This document shows positions 39,523 through 49,380 of a DNA stretch of 64,000 nt, one piece after another. The stretch covers positions 1 to 64,000 of the forward strand of contig JAUVVA010000005.1 of the NCBI GenBank assembly GCA_030604905.1, in the 5' to 3' direction. The translations under genes and the position numbers were made by a program. Every line of letters starts with the position of its first letter. Within the stretch, counting starts at the first letter, position 1. This DNA comes from Verrucomicrobiota bacterium. Lineage in GTDB: Bacteria; Verrucomicrobiota; Verrucomicrobiia; Opitutales; Opitutaceae. Below the pieces are notes generated by a model, which saw only the letters and a list, made by a program, of their open reading frames with translations, did not search any database and was not told where the DNA came from.

Positions 39523-40578
39523 ATGTTCCTTCAATCGCTCGCCACCGCTCTGCCTCCCGCTCGATTCACCCAAGCCGAAAGCCTGCGCCTCATCGCGGCC
39601 TCGGAGGGCCATGCCCGCCTCTCGCGTCGCTCCCGCCTCACGCTGCAAGCCGTCTTGCGCGGTGAGAGCGGGGTCGCGACGCGCCACTTCGCCTTTGATC
39701 CCATCGACCGGCTTTTCGGCGCCTCGGCCGACACCCTCAACGAGGCCTTTCGCGAGGAGGCGCCGCGGCTCGCGGGCCGGGCCCTGGCCGACGCGCTGCA
39801 GAAAGCCGGTCTCGAGGCCGCGCAACTCGACGCGCTCGTGATCTGCACCTGCACCGGCTACCTGTGCCCCGGGGTGACGAGTTACGTGGCGGAAAAACTC
39901 GGCCTGCGCGCCGACGCCTACCTGCAAGATCTCGTCGGGCTAGGTTGCGGCGCCGCCATCCCCGCGCTCCGCTCCGTCGAGGCGCTGCTCGCCGTCCGCC
40001 CCGCCGCCACCGTGGCCTGCGTGGCGGTGGAGATCTGCTCGGCCGCCTTTTACCTCGACGACAATCCCGGCGTGCTCATCAGCGCCTGTCTTTTTGGCGA
40101 CGGCGCCGCGGCCACGATTTGGCGCGCCACGCCGCCGCCCTCCGCGGCCGGGCCGGCCCTGCGCGCGGGCGGCTTCAACACCCTGCACCTTCCGGAAGCG
40201 CGCGATCACATCCGCTTCGAGCAGCGCTTCGGCAAGCTGCGCAACTTGCTCACCCCGGCCGTGCCCGCCCTCGCCGCCGAGGCGGTGGCGAGGCTCTTCG
40301 CCGAGGAGTCGCGGCGGGCGCCCGAGCCCGTGCGTATCCTCAGTCACCCGGGCGGACGCGACGTGCTCGACGCCATCGAGGCCGCCTTGCCCGCGCATCG
40401 TCTCGACGCCAGCCGCCACATCCTTCGCGAGTTTGGCAACATGAGCAGTCCATCGGTGCTCTTCGCGCTCGAGCACGCCTTGCGCGAGGACGCGCCGCGC
40501 CCGGGCAAGCCGTGGTGGTTGGTGAGCTTTGGCGCCGGATTCGCCGCCCACTCCTGCCGGGTGGAGGCGGTGGCGTAG
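39523..40578 (+). CDS. Type III polyketide synthase (chalcone/stilbene synthase family)
   Basis: CTCTGYLCPGVTSYVAEKLGL, LVGLGCGAAIPAL (catalytic Cys), ILSHPGGRDVLDAIE (His), FGNMSSPSVLFAL (Asn). Confidence 0.93.
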   Translation: MFLQSLATALPPARFTQAESLRLIAASEGHARLSRRSRLTLQAVLRGESGVATRHFAFDPIDRLFGASADTLNEAFREEAPRLAGRALADALQKAGLEAAQLDALVICTCTGYLCPGVTSYVAEKLGLRADAYLQDLVGLGCGAAIPALRSVEALLAVRPAATVACVAVEICSAAFYLDDNPGVLISACLFGDGAAATIWRATPPPSAAGPALRAGGFNTLHLPEARDHIRFEQRFGKLRNLLTPAVPALAAEAVARLFAEESRRAPEPVRILSHPGGRDVLDAIEAALPAHRLDASRHILREFGNMSSPSVLFALEHALREDAPRPGKPWWLVSFGAGFAAHSCRVEAVA

Positions 40579-41340: not shown

Positions 41341-41365
41341 AAGTGTAAGCCATTGGGTGACACTT
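41341..41365. repeat. Degenerate palindromic repeat (AAGTGTaagccattgggtgACACTT), TGTCACC family
   Basis: Imperfect dyad related to 43697-43721 and 43756-43776. Confidence 0.5.
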
Positions 41366-41912: not shown

Positions 41913-44144
41913 CTAGATCGTGCGGCGTTCGGGCAACCGGATCGTCGCGCGCGTGAGCCGGTGCTGCACCGGGCGGCGTTGCTCCGGGGTGAGCGGCGGC
42001 AAGTCGGGCAAGTCCGCCGCGCGCGCGTCGCCGAGCAGGCGTGAGGCCACGGCACGTGCGGCGTCCCAACGTTCGCGCAAGGGCGCGGTGGCGAAGGGCA
42101 GGCCTTCGGCCAAGGGCTCGGCGGCGGCGAGGCTGCGCAAAAAGCTGCGCCACTCGGTGAGCAGGCGGTCGATGTCGCCGCGGCCGGCGGCGGCGTGTTC
42201 GTCGGCGAGCGTGTGGGCGAGCGCGCCGCGCGAGGCGTGACCCTCGACGAGGGCCTGCACGATCTCGCTCGCGCCGTAGCCGTAGGCGGGCGGCAGTCCC
42301 TCCTCGAGGTAGCCGCCGACGCTGAGGCGCCGGTAGGTTTTTTCGCAGGCGAAGGCGAGGCGGCCGAGGCGGCGCGGGTTGGTGCCGGCGAAGCGGTCGC
42401 CGGCGAAGAGATTGGCGCAGTCGAACAGGAGCTGGTCGACCGGGTAGCGGCGGTCCTCGAGGCCGGCGGCCAGCGCCAGGCCCTCGGGACCGAGAAACAC
42501 GGCGACGATGGCGCCGCGCGCGGTGAGGCGGAGGCGTTTGTCGAGGATGCCGGCGCGTTGCCATTCCCAGAGCGGGGTGGGCTCGGGCGAGAGGGACAGG
42601 CACTCGGCGCGGTGCGCGCAGCCGCGGCAGCCGGGGAAGGGCTCGCGGCGGCGGCGCACCAGGCGGGCGCGGCCCGTATCGGTGAGGAGACCACAGGGCA
42701 GGGTCTCGTCGGGCGGGAGGGCGGAGGTGGCCTCGGCGCCGAGGCGCAGCGGCTGCTCGGTGAAGAAGCGCGCGGCGGCGTCGCGCGCGAGCGAGAGAGC
42801 CGATTCGCCGGGGGCGAGGCGGCGGAGGAGCGCGGCCCAGGGCAGGGGCGCGGCGCGTTTGAGGCGGAGCGGGGCGGCGCGGCGCAGGCGCGGGGTGCGG
42901 CCGGAGACGAGCACGTAGCCGGTCTCGTCGAGGCCGCGTCGGCCGGCGCGCCCGATCATCTGGAGCAGCTCGTGCGGGGCGATGTCGCGCTCGAGGGCGC
43001 CGACGCGGTAGCTCGCGGCGGTGAGCATGACCGAGCGCAGGGAGAAGTTGATCCCGGCGGCGAGGCCGAGGGTGGCGACGACGGCGCGCAGTTGCCCGGC
43101 CTTGGCCAGCGGCTCAACGAGGCCGGCGCGCTGGGCGTAGGAGAGCCCGCTGTGGTGGTGGGCGACGCGGCGCTGGAGGAGGCGGGCGAGGGCGGGGCCG
43201 GCCATCGATTCCTGCTCGGGCGTGAGCGGGAGCGGATCGGCGAGCGGGAGTTCGCGGGCGAGCTGGCGGGCGAGGCGCTCGGCGTCGGCCCGGTGGGGGG
43301 CGAAGACGAGCACCGGCGCGAGGCCTTCGCGCAGGGCGCCGGCGACGCGCCGCGCCCAGAAGCTGCCGATCTCGGAGGGCAGGCCGCGGGCGAGGTCGTC
43401 GATCTCGACCTCCTCGAGCGGCACGGGGCGGATCGCGGTGCGCACCACCTCGACGCGGCGGCCGAGGCGGGCGAGCCAGGCGGCGACGTCCTCGGGATTG
43501 GCGACCGAGCCGGAGAGCAGGAGCAGTTGCACCGAGGGGGGCAGGGTGGCGACGACGCCCTCGTAGTGGTTGCCGCGGGCGGGATCGGCCAGCCACTGGT
43601 ATTCGTCGATCACGAGGAGGTCCGGCAGGCGCTCGCCCGCGGCGCGAGGGCCCGGTGCCGACGCCGGGGCGGGAGCAGACGCCGCGGCGTCGGGCGAATT
43701 GTCACCAATCTGGTGACAGTTTTCGGAGGGCGTTTCCGAGGGGGGAGGGAGGGAATTGTCACCCAATGGGTGACAAAAGGCGGGGGCGGGGAGGGCGCGG
43801 AGGAAGGCTCCTTGGGCGGCTTCGAGGGTGGCGACGACGATCGGGGCGTGGGGGGCGACGGAGAGGTCGCCGGTGGTGATGCCGACGCGCCAGCCGCGGG
43901 CGCGCCACTCGGCGTATTTGTCGTTGGCAAGGGCGCGGGTGGGGACGGTGAAGATCGCGCGGCGGGCGAAGTTGCCCTGCTCGACGAAGCGCTCGAAGAC
44001 GTGGGTTTTGCCGGCGCCGGTGGGGGCGTCGACGATGACGTCGTGGCCGGCCAGAAGGGCGTGCACGGCGTCGCGTTGCCACCGGTCGGGCAGCATGAGC
44101 GATTGCAGGCCTTGGAAGTCGCCGAGCCGCATGGGGCCGCGCAC
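41913..44144 (-). CDS. DEAD/DEAH-box (Ski2-like) RNA helicase with repeat-derived insertion
   Basis: VIVDAPTGAGKTHVFERF, LLVIDEYQWLAD, ATLGLAAGINF, QMIGRAGRRGLDETG; start possibly at internal ATG about 44132. Confidence 0.88.
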   Translation of the reverse strand: MRGPMRLGDFQGLQSLMLPDRWQRDAVHALLAGHDVIVDAPTGAGKTHVFERFVEQGNFARRAIFTVPTRALANDKYAEWRARGWRVGITTGDLSVAPHAPIVVATLEAAQGAFLRALPAPAFCHPLGDNSLPPPSETPSENCHQIGDNSPDAAASAPAPASAPGPRAAGERLPDLLVIDEYQWLADPARGNHYEGVVATLPPSVQLLLLSGSVANPEDVAAWLARLGRRVEVVRTAIRPVPLEEVEIDDLARGLPSEIGSFWARRVAGALREGLAPVLVFAPHRADAERLARQLARELPLADPLPLTPEQESMAGPALARLLQRRVAHHHSGLSYAQRAGLVEPLAKAGQLRAVVATLGLAAGINFSLRSVMLTAASYRVGALERDIAPHELLQMIGRAGRRGLDETGYVLVSGRTPRLRRAAPLRLKRAAPLPWAALLRRLAPGESALSLARDAAARFFTEQPLRLGAEATSALPPDETLPCGLLTDTGRARLVRRRREPFPGCRGCAHRAECLSLSPEPTPLWEWQRAGILDKRLRLTARGAIVAVFLGPEGLALAAGLEDRRYPVDQLLFDCANLFAGDRFAGTNPRRLGRLAFACEKTYRRLSVGGYLEEGLPPAYGYGASEIVQALVEGHASRGALAHTLADEHAAAGRGDIDRLLTEWRSFLRSLAAAEPLAEGLPFATAPLRERWDAARAVASRLLGDARAADLPDLPPLTPEQRRPVQHRLTRATIRLPERRTI
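43697..43721. repeat. Intragenic palindromic repeat copy (TGTCACCAatcTGGTGACA)
   Basis: aattGTCACCAatcTGGTGACagtt inside helicase CDS; encodes CHQIGDNS. Confidence 0.85.
43756..43776. repeat. Intragenic perfect palindromic repeat (TTGTCACCCA a TGGGTGACAA)
   Basis: 10-bp perfect arms inside helicase CDS; encodes CHPLGDNS in the same frame as the other copy. Confidence 0.9.
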
Positions 44145-45663: not shown

Positions 45664-45740
45664 GGACGCCTAGCTCAGTTGGTTAGAGCACATCCTTCAC
45701 ACGGATGGGGTCACAGGTTCGAGTCCTGTGGCGTCCACCA
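45664..45740 (+). tRNA. tRNA-Val (anticodon CAC), CCA encoded
   Basis: GGACGCC acceptor pairs with GGCGTCC; anticodon stem CATCC-TTCACAC-GGATG; TTCGAGT T-loop; terminal ACCA. Confidence 0.97.
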
Positions 45741-49358: not shown

Positions 49359-49380
49359 TTTGTCACCAGTCCTGGTGACG
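49359..49380. repeat. Intergenic palindromic repeat (TTTTGTCACCAG tc CTGGTGACG), TGTCACC family
   Basis: 8-bp perfect arms; same core as the intragenic copies at 43.7 kb. Confidence 0.75.

Follow-up and report, generated by a model that had tools for sequence, protein, structure and literature searches.

Probably REP-like palindromic hairpins dispersed through Opitutaceae genomes and lying in frame within enzyme linkers

A family of ~37-bp palindromic hairpins, two copies of which lie inside a helicase gene, is likely to represent REP-like, non-autonomous repeats that spread in Opitutaceae genomes and are tolerated in protein linkers. New copies would be made from existing ones, probably as a single-stranded hairpin, by a copying enzyme supplied in trans; those within genes would persist only if they lie in a stop-free frame, of which there are two, and in a linker flexible enough to accommodate the added residues. 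Judged by its reading frames, the palindrome DNA in genes seems to be read through into additional protein sequence. The original prediction of a mobile element comparable to the Rickettsia palindromic elements holds in concept, in-frame palindromes being present in many genes, and fails in size and sequence; mobility itself is what we infer.

Two hairpins in a helicase loop

The window is a 64,000-nt stretch (contig C132:1-64000) of host assembly G000 (4.19 Mb, 81% complete), the closest named relatives of which are Opitutaceae MAGs. Two palindromes, TTGTCACCAATCTGGTGACAG at 43699-43719 and TTGTCACCCAATGGGTGACAA at 43756-43776, with a start-to-start distance of 57 bp, are found in the helicase ORF, where the coding strand across the segment reads FCHPLGDNSLPPPSETPSENCHQIGDNSP; CHQIGDN and CHPLGDN are both read in frame, bearing out the duplicated CHxxGDN peptide first noticed there (Table 1). 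The window was expected to hold 0.11 such palindromes by chance (≤3 mismatches), against the two observed, a number reached in none of 100 shuffles. As folded DNA, the two form stable hairpins (z −3.9 and −4.8), with a z of −5.4 for the 101-nt coding strand that carries both. The intergenic palindromes suspected on either side of the gene are also real, both being degenerate members of the family.

Table 1. Features of the helicase gene and its surroundings (window coordinates; the 37-bp extent of the hairpin copies is taken from base-stem pairing across the whole family).
Feature	Position	Strand	Basis or remark
Host gene, Ski2/Hel308-like DExH helicase, 743 aa, intact ORF	41913..44144	-	Pfam and PDB-sequence matches
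Extra disordered loop (predicted), codons of residues 121-170, holding both copies	43635..43784	-	AlphaFold2 pLDDT, orthologue loops
Hairpin copy 1	43748..43784; 19-mer core 43757-43775 = TGTCACCCAATGGGTGACA	.	Encodes CHPLGDN
Hairpin copy 2	43691..43727; 19-mer core 43700-43718 = TGTCACCAATCTGGTGACA	.	Encodes CHQIGDN
Degenerate intergenic copy TGTAAGCCATTGGGTGACA	41344..41362	.	Flanks typical of the family (ggaaag...cttttcc)
Degenerate intergenic copy TGTCACCAGTCCTGGTGACG	49361..49380	.	Sequence match to the same palindrome family

Profile searches matched the host protein to Pfam DEAD (6e-17) and Helicase_C (8.6e-6); its best solved relative among PDB sequences is SKI2W (E 3.8e-33), and its best NCBIfam matches are Hel308-type models, with scores far under their cut-offs. 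These sequence matches place it as a Ski2/Hel308-like DExH (DEYQ) protein, retaining the original assignment as a helicase and not that as a DEAD-box protein in the strict sense. Elsewhere in the window, the ORF at 39523-40578 resembles, by eye, a chalcone synthase (type III polyketide synthase), and an Rfam scan of the window matched a single feature, the tRNA gene (RF00005) at 45664-45737, not far from the helicase palindromes.

Mapped on an AlphaFold2 model (mean pLDDT 80.8, from a 25-sequence alignment), the insert falls in a predicted disordered loop, with pLDDT below 50 only at residues 121-170 and both termini; this sole internal disordered stretch sits between a helix (107-117) and a strand (176-180) leading into motif II (DEYQ). 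Alignment of orthologues, as had been proposed, shows that the segment varies in length: the loop from ATLEA to LLVIDEYQ spans 67 aa in the host helicase versus 15 aa, with no palindrome, in six relatives (L073, L075, L077-L079 and L107; 75-78% identical to the host protein over the best tblastn segment). A single copy (FCNQIGDK) is present in the loop of L072, a degraded palindrome in that of L071, and a long perfect palindrome from an unrelated second family at the same place in L070. The extra residues most likely make no difference to helicase function.

Architecture and distribution of the palindromes

The exact pattern TGTCACC-N5-GGTGACA occurs 51 times in G000 and the relaxed TGTNACCN5GGTNACA 61 times, with no occurrence of a reversed control (the TGTCACCN5GGTGACA pattern read backwards), and the genome-wide excess over chance on which the original prediction depended is therefore present. 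The 58 copies read in this genome occupy ~23 places, mostly intergenic, in arrays of up to 8 in L033 (near matches counted) and 7 in L034; intergenic sites lie between co-directional or divergent genes, with none between convergent genes (few sites). Palindromes in genes are rarer than the 83% coding fraction of the genome predicts, a deficit that fits selection against most gene insertions. Several arrays show tandem amplification, in units of ~285, 298 and 151 bp (L033:2096-2732, L034:7006-7617 and L048:7301-7621), and the closest pair in the host is abutting, with a 20-bp period (L042:1404-1442; TGTCACCAGTTGGGTGACA-T-TGTCACCAGATTGGTGACA). Two loci, L045 (G000:C176) and L046 (G000:C205), share an Fpg gene neighbourhood and carry different palindromes, which points either to a recent duplication or to an assembly of mixed strains.

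Across 189 unique copies, some of them common to species by descent so that counts are not fully independent, the element is a ~37-bp hairpin with a conserved 8-bp tip, a 3-nt loop and ~9 further bp, which differ by locus yet tend to stay self-complementary. Stem position 4/16 co-varies (C-G in 113 copies, A-T in 60, other in 16), and the eighth stem pair is A-T, C-G, T-A or wobble in nearly all. Beyond the 19-mer, pairs 1-9 are complementary above shuffles and pair 10 is not, with extensions of at least 6 bp in 26 of the 189 copies versus 1.8 expected (maximum 8 in 500 shuffles). The full 19-mers, together with their loops, are almost uniform within a genome and different between genomes: 21 of 22 copies in G005 are TGTAACCAAATTGGTTACA, 23 of 24 in G008 share one version, first-family copies in G002 are mostly TGTAACCCAATAGGTTACA, and G097 holds a pair of sub-families that differ from each other in both arms and loop. 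This homogeneity is read as descent from master copies. Neighbouring palindromes, in mixed orientation and with spacers otherwise unrelated in sequence, lie 44-46, 53-57, 63-70 or 86-93 bp apart, with nothing in the gaps between these ranges; the best period is 10.5 bp (42 pairs, homologous spacers merged; p 0.0002 versus jitter).

The family was found in 78 of 200 Opitutaceae genomes, most of the genomes compared being incomplete metagenome assemblies, and in 31 of 49 genera, with up to 68 copies; five of 15 congeners are without palindromes. Matches in the rest of the phylum are scattered singles or doubles whose arms and spacers are unrelated; they occur about as often as those of the control and look like chance. 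All 19 palindromes of G034 lie in the middle half of a complete 6.1-Mb chromosome (G034:C1 2022719-5232208). A rule of chromosomal position was rejected: G034 clusters at 2.0-5.2 of 6.1 Mb, but the 68 copies of G097 are spread throughout.

The second family, GTCAATCAATGATTGAC, numbers ~37 copies in L070's own genome, G002, and ~18 in two more congeners, with none in seven others tested (≤2 mismatches throughout). It has a conserved 17-mer and a base self-complementary to about pair 10 (total ~37 bp), and 8 of 21 copies extend at least 6 bp versus 1.0 expected. G002 holds both families, with 37 first-family and 27 exact second-family copies, which rules out one family per genome as exclusive dialects. 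In other species, the helicase, NnrE/D and PfkB sites used by the first family carry the second.

Copies within genes

Palindromes lie wholly inside at least eight G000 genes, in frame: two each in the helicase, NnrE/NnrD and an MBL-DNA ligase fusion, with further copies in an alpha/beta hydrolase, a urea carboxylase-like protein, a PfkB-type kinase, a beta-mannosidase and CysJ. Others lie at the ends of genes for an ABC-F protein and Fpg, where gene limits, drawn by a simple Markov gene caller, are less certain; functions other than that of the helicase were read by eye from sequence motifs. Intragenic copies use two stop-free frames, giving CHQIGD, CHPLGD or CHQSGD in one and VTNLVT in the other, the third frame containing a stop. 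Since the same DNA is read in two frames (CHQIGD, VTNLVT) and also occurs outside genes, it is the DNA and not the peptide that is conserved.

Corresponding sites in other species are variously occupied. In the NnrE/NnrD linker, G000 and G013 each have two first-family copies, G009 and G005 have single versions and G004 has the second family (SQSMIDK); G001 and G011 show similar peptides there, and in other genomes the linker is short. In the ligase linker, G000 and G009 each have two copies, G013 has one and four congeners have none. CysJ, PfkB, the hydrolase and urea carboxylase each carry a species-specific version at the same site, or none, the CysJ versions being VTNLVT, VTKLVT or VTYWVT and those of PfkB VTNLVT versus CQSMID. 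Orthologues are polymorphic in length in the helicase loop, the NnrE/D and ligase linkers and the hydrolase. Linker length in urea carboxylase and PfkB is near-constant with a palindrome, without one or with a different one, which is unexpected from plain insertion and counts against an insertion reading; rapid linker divergence means that exact insertion ends cannot be drawn.

For eight of the 23 G000 places (about one-third), most of them intragenic, the G013 loci read include a counterpart with a palindrome. An unrelated 819-codon frame in G013 (C264:29024-29116) matches the NnrE/D query only over the double-palindrome insert, and this second G013 protein may carry the same palindrome doublet as NnrE/D.

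Origin of the repeats

GTAG- and CGTC-tagged REPs were described by Di Nocera et al. 2013 (PMC3733652). Those of Opitutus terrae are 20-40 bp palindromes present as singles, dimers or groups and mostly intergenic; most intragenic GTAG REPs occur in this species, including in a DNA ligase and RNA helicases, and more than half of its intragenic REPs are doublets or groups encoding 20-30 residues (PMC3733652). Different REPs have also been observed at about the same recB site in two Xanthomonas species (PMC3733652). The intragenic REP phenomenon is thus already published for Opitutaceae. The present family resembles the Opitutus terrae REPs in belonging to the same bacterial family and in comprising 20-40 bp palindromes, mostly intergenic, with in-frame copies in genes; unlike the GTAG REPs, it has no GTAG or CGTC tag and no adjoining tyrosine transposase, and has a conserved tip on a variable base. 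By the features that define REPs, the palindromes are of the expected size (~37 bp), dispersed and mostly intergenic, and lack both tag and flanking RAYT; the family is probably a new REP-like variant, without tag and linked transposase. In the ligase region (L275) of G017, a complete 6.0-Mb genome of another genus, two palindromes of GTAG type, with GTAG on the other strand, lie at 1042-1070 and 1514-1540 (CCGGGGTC..GACCCCGG-ctac), and two copies of GACGCGACGAGGGCGTCGCGTC at 603 and 1551; different repeat types therefore use the ligase gene.

Searches for copying machinery gave no linked candidate. Y1_Tnp genes occur in 49 of 53 genomes, whether or not these carry repeats; none of the 40 Y1_Tnp loci read, a subset of Y1 genes, carries a palindrome, and G031 has 18 palindromes and no Y1_Tnp match at 97% completeness. 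Clustering of ORFs within 1.5 kb of 148 palindrome segments yielded only host orthologues as potential partner genes. With Y1_Tnp unlinked and no other recurrent neighbour gene, copying by a trans-acting enzyme is suggested. Within 14 bp of the core, GTAG was found on 1.1% of sides versus 2.4% further away, and CGTC on 2.1% versus 6.1%. As regards MITE features, the whole element is one hairpin, and no parent element was found within 1.5 kb of the 148 segments. There was no sign of a clean empty site, a target duplication or a new insertion, the linkers being too diverged to show a duplication.

An alternative, which we consider unlikely, holds that the palindromes are binding sites for a dimeric DNA-binding protein (a regulator, nucleoid or segregation factor), with co-evolving dialects rewritten in place. 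Such sites would account for the dyad symmetry, for the different versions carried by species at orthologous gene positions (CysJ, PfkB), for neighbours ~44, 56, 67 and 88 bp apart on a 10.5-bp period despite unrelated spacers, and for the unlinked transposase; they would account less well for a 5-nt centre that is conserved like the arms within a genome and changes with them, as from a master, for complementarity ~9 bp past the conserved core in locus-specific sequence, for the palindrome-free congeners, for proteins made longer by copies, and for two unrelated families together in G002. Species-specific dialects of a recognised DNA site, rewritten in place genome-wide so that TGTCACC, TGTAACC or GTCAATCA hairpins appear in the same linkers, are similarly doubtful. 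That the hairpins act in RNA, in termination or mRNA stability, with gene copies as by-products, is quite improbable: the hairpins are stable, wobble is permitted at the eighth pair, and at least four T fall in the first 7 nt on 15% of sides versus 2.7% at 40 bp away, but a longer T tract (6 of 9) is seen on just 1.9% of sides, the few host intergenic sites include none between convergent genes, and arrays of up to 8 and mid-gene copies are unlike terminators. A role as terminators was rejected for the scarcity of T tracts and absence of convergent-gene bias. An ordinary low-complexity loop, with palindromes arising by chance or coding constraint, is exceedingly improbable; the helicase loop is variable and proline/alanine-rich across many Opitutaceae, but the counts exceed expectation in the window, the 51 copies against none in the control refute it genome-wide, and one DNA is read in two frames and found outside genes.

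Rickettsia palindromic elements are ~150 bp and translated in frame in many unrelated genes (PMC10969869). The present palindromes, as read from sequence, are similarly in frame in at least eight unrelated genes, and differ in size (~37 bp), sequence and an unrelated host, being confined to Opitutaceae in the samples searched; a conserved encoded peptide is a further mark of the Rickettsia elements. REPINs and BIMEs also feature repeats often arranged as doublets at set spacings, unlike which the Opitutaceae doublets show mixed orientation, unrelated spacers and the 10.5-bp period. DNA uptake sequence dialects of Neisseriaceae comprise species-specific versions of an oriented motif at corresponding sites, in more than 1000 copies; the palindromes are like these in that a motif takes its own form in each species at equivalent positions, a likeness drawn from sequence pattern, and differ in numbering tens of copies and in forming a hairpin rather than an oriented motif. 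In the open-licence literature, no description was found of a ~37-bp hairpin family that is untagged, unlinked to a transposase, helically phased and represented at shared sites by species-specific versions.

The family offers a further case, beyond Rickettsia, of selfish-looking palindromes being read as part of enzymes. The missing REP tag and unlinked tyrosine transposase leave the copying machinery searchable, and the 10.5-bp phasing of neighbours is a clue to a protein handling the palindromes on duplex DNA; were the dialect reading true, a co-evolving protein that binds the DNA or processes the hairpins would lie behind spread and switching alike. With many congeners at graded distance, gain, switching and decay are traceable at the same codons.
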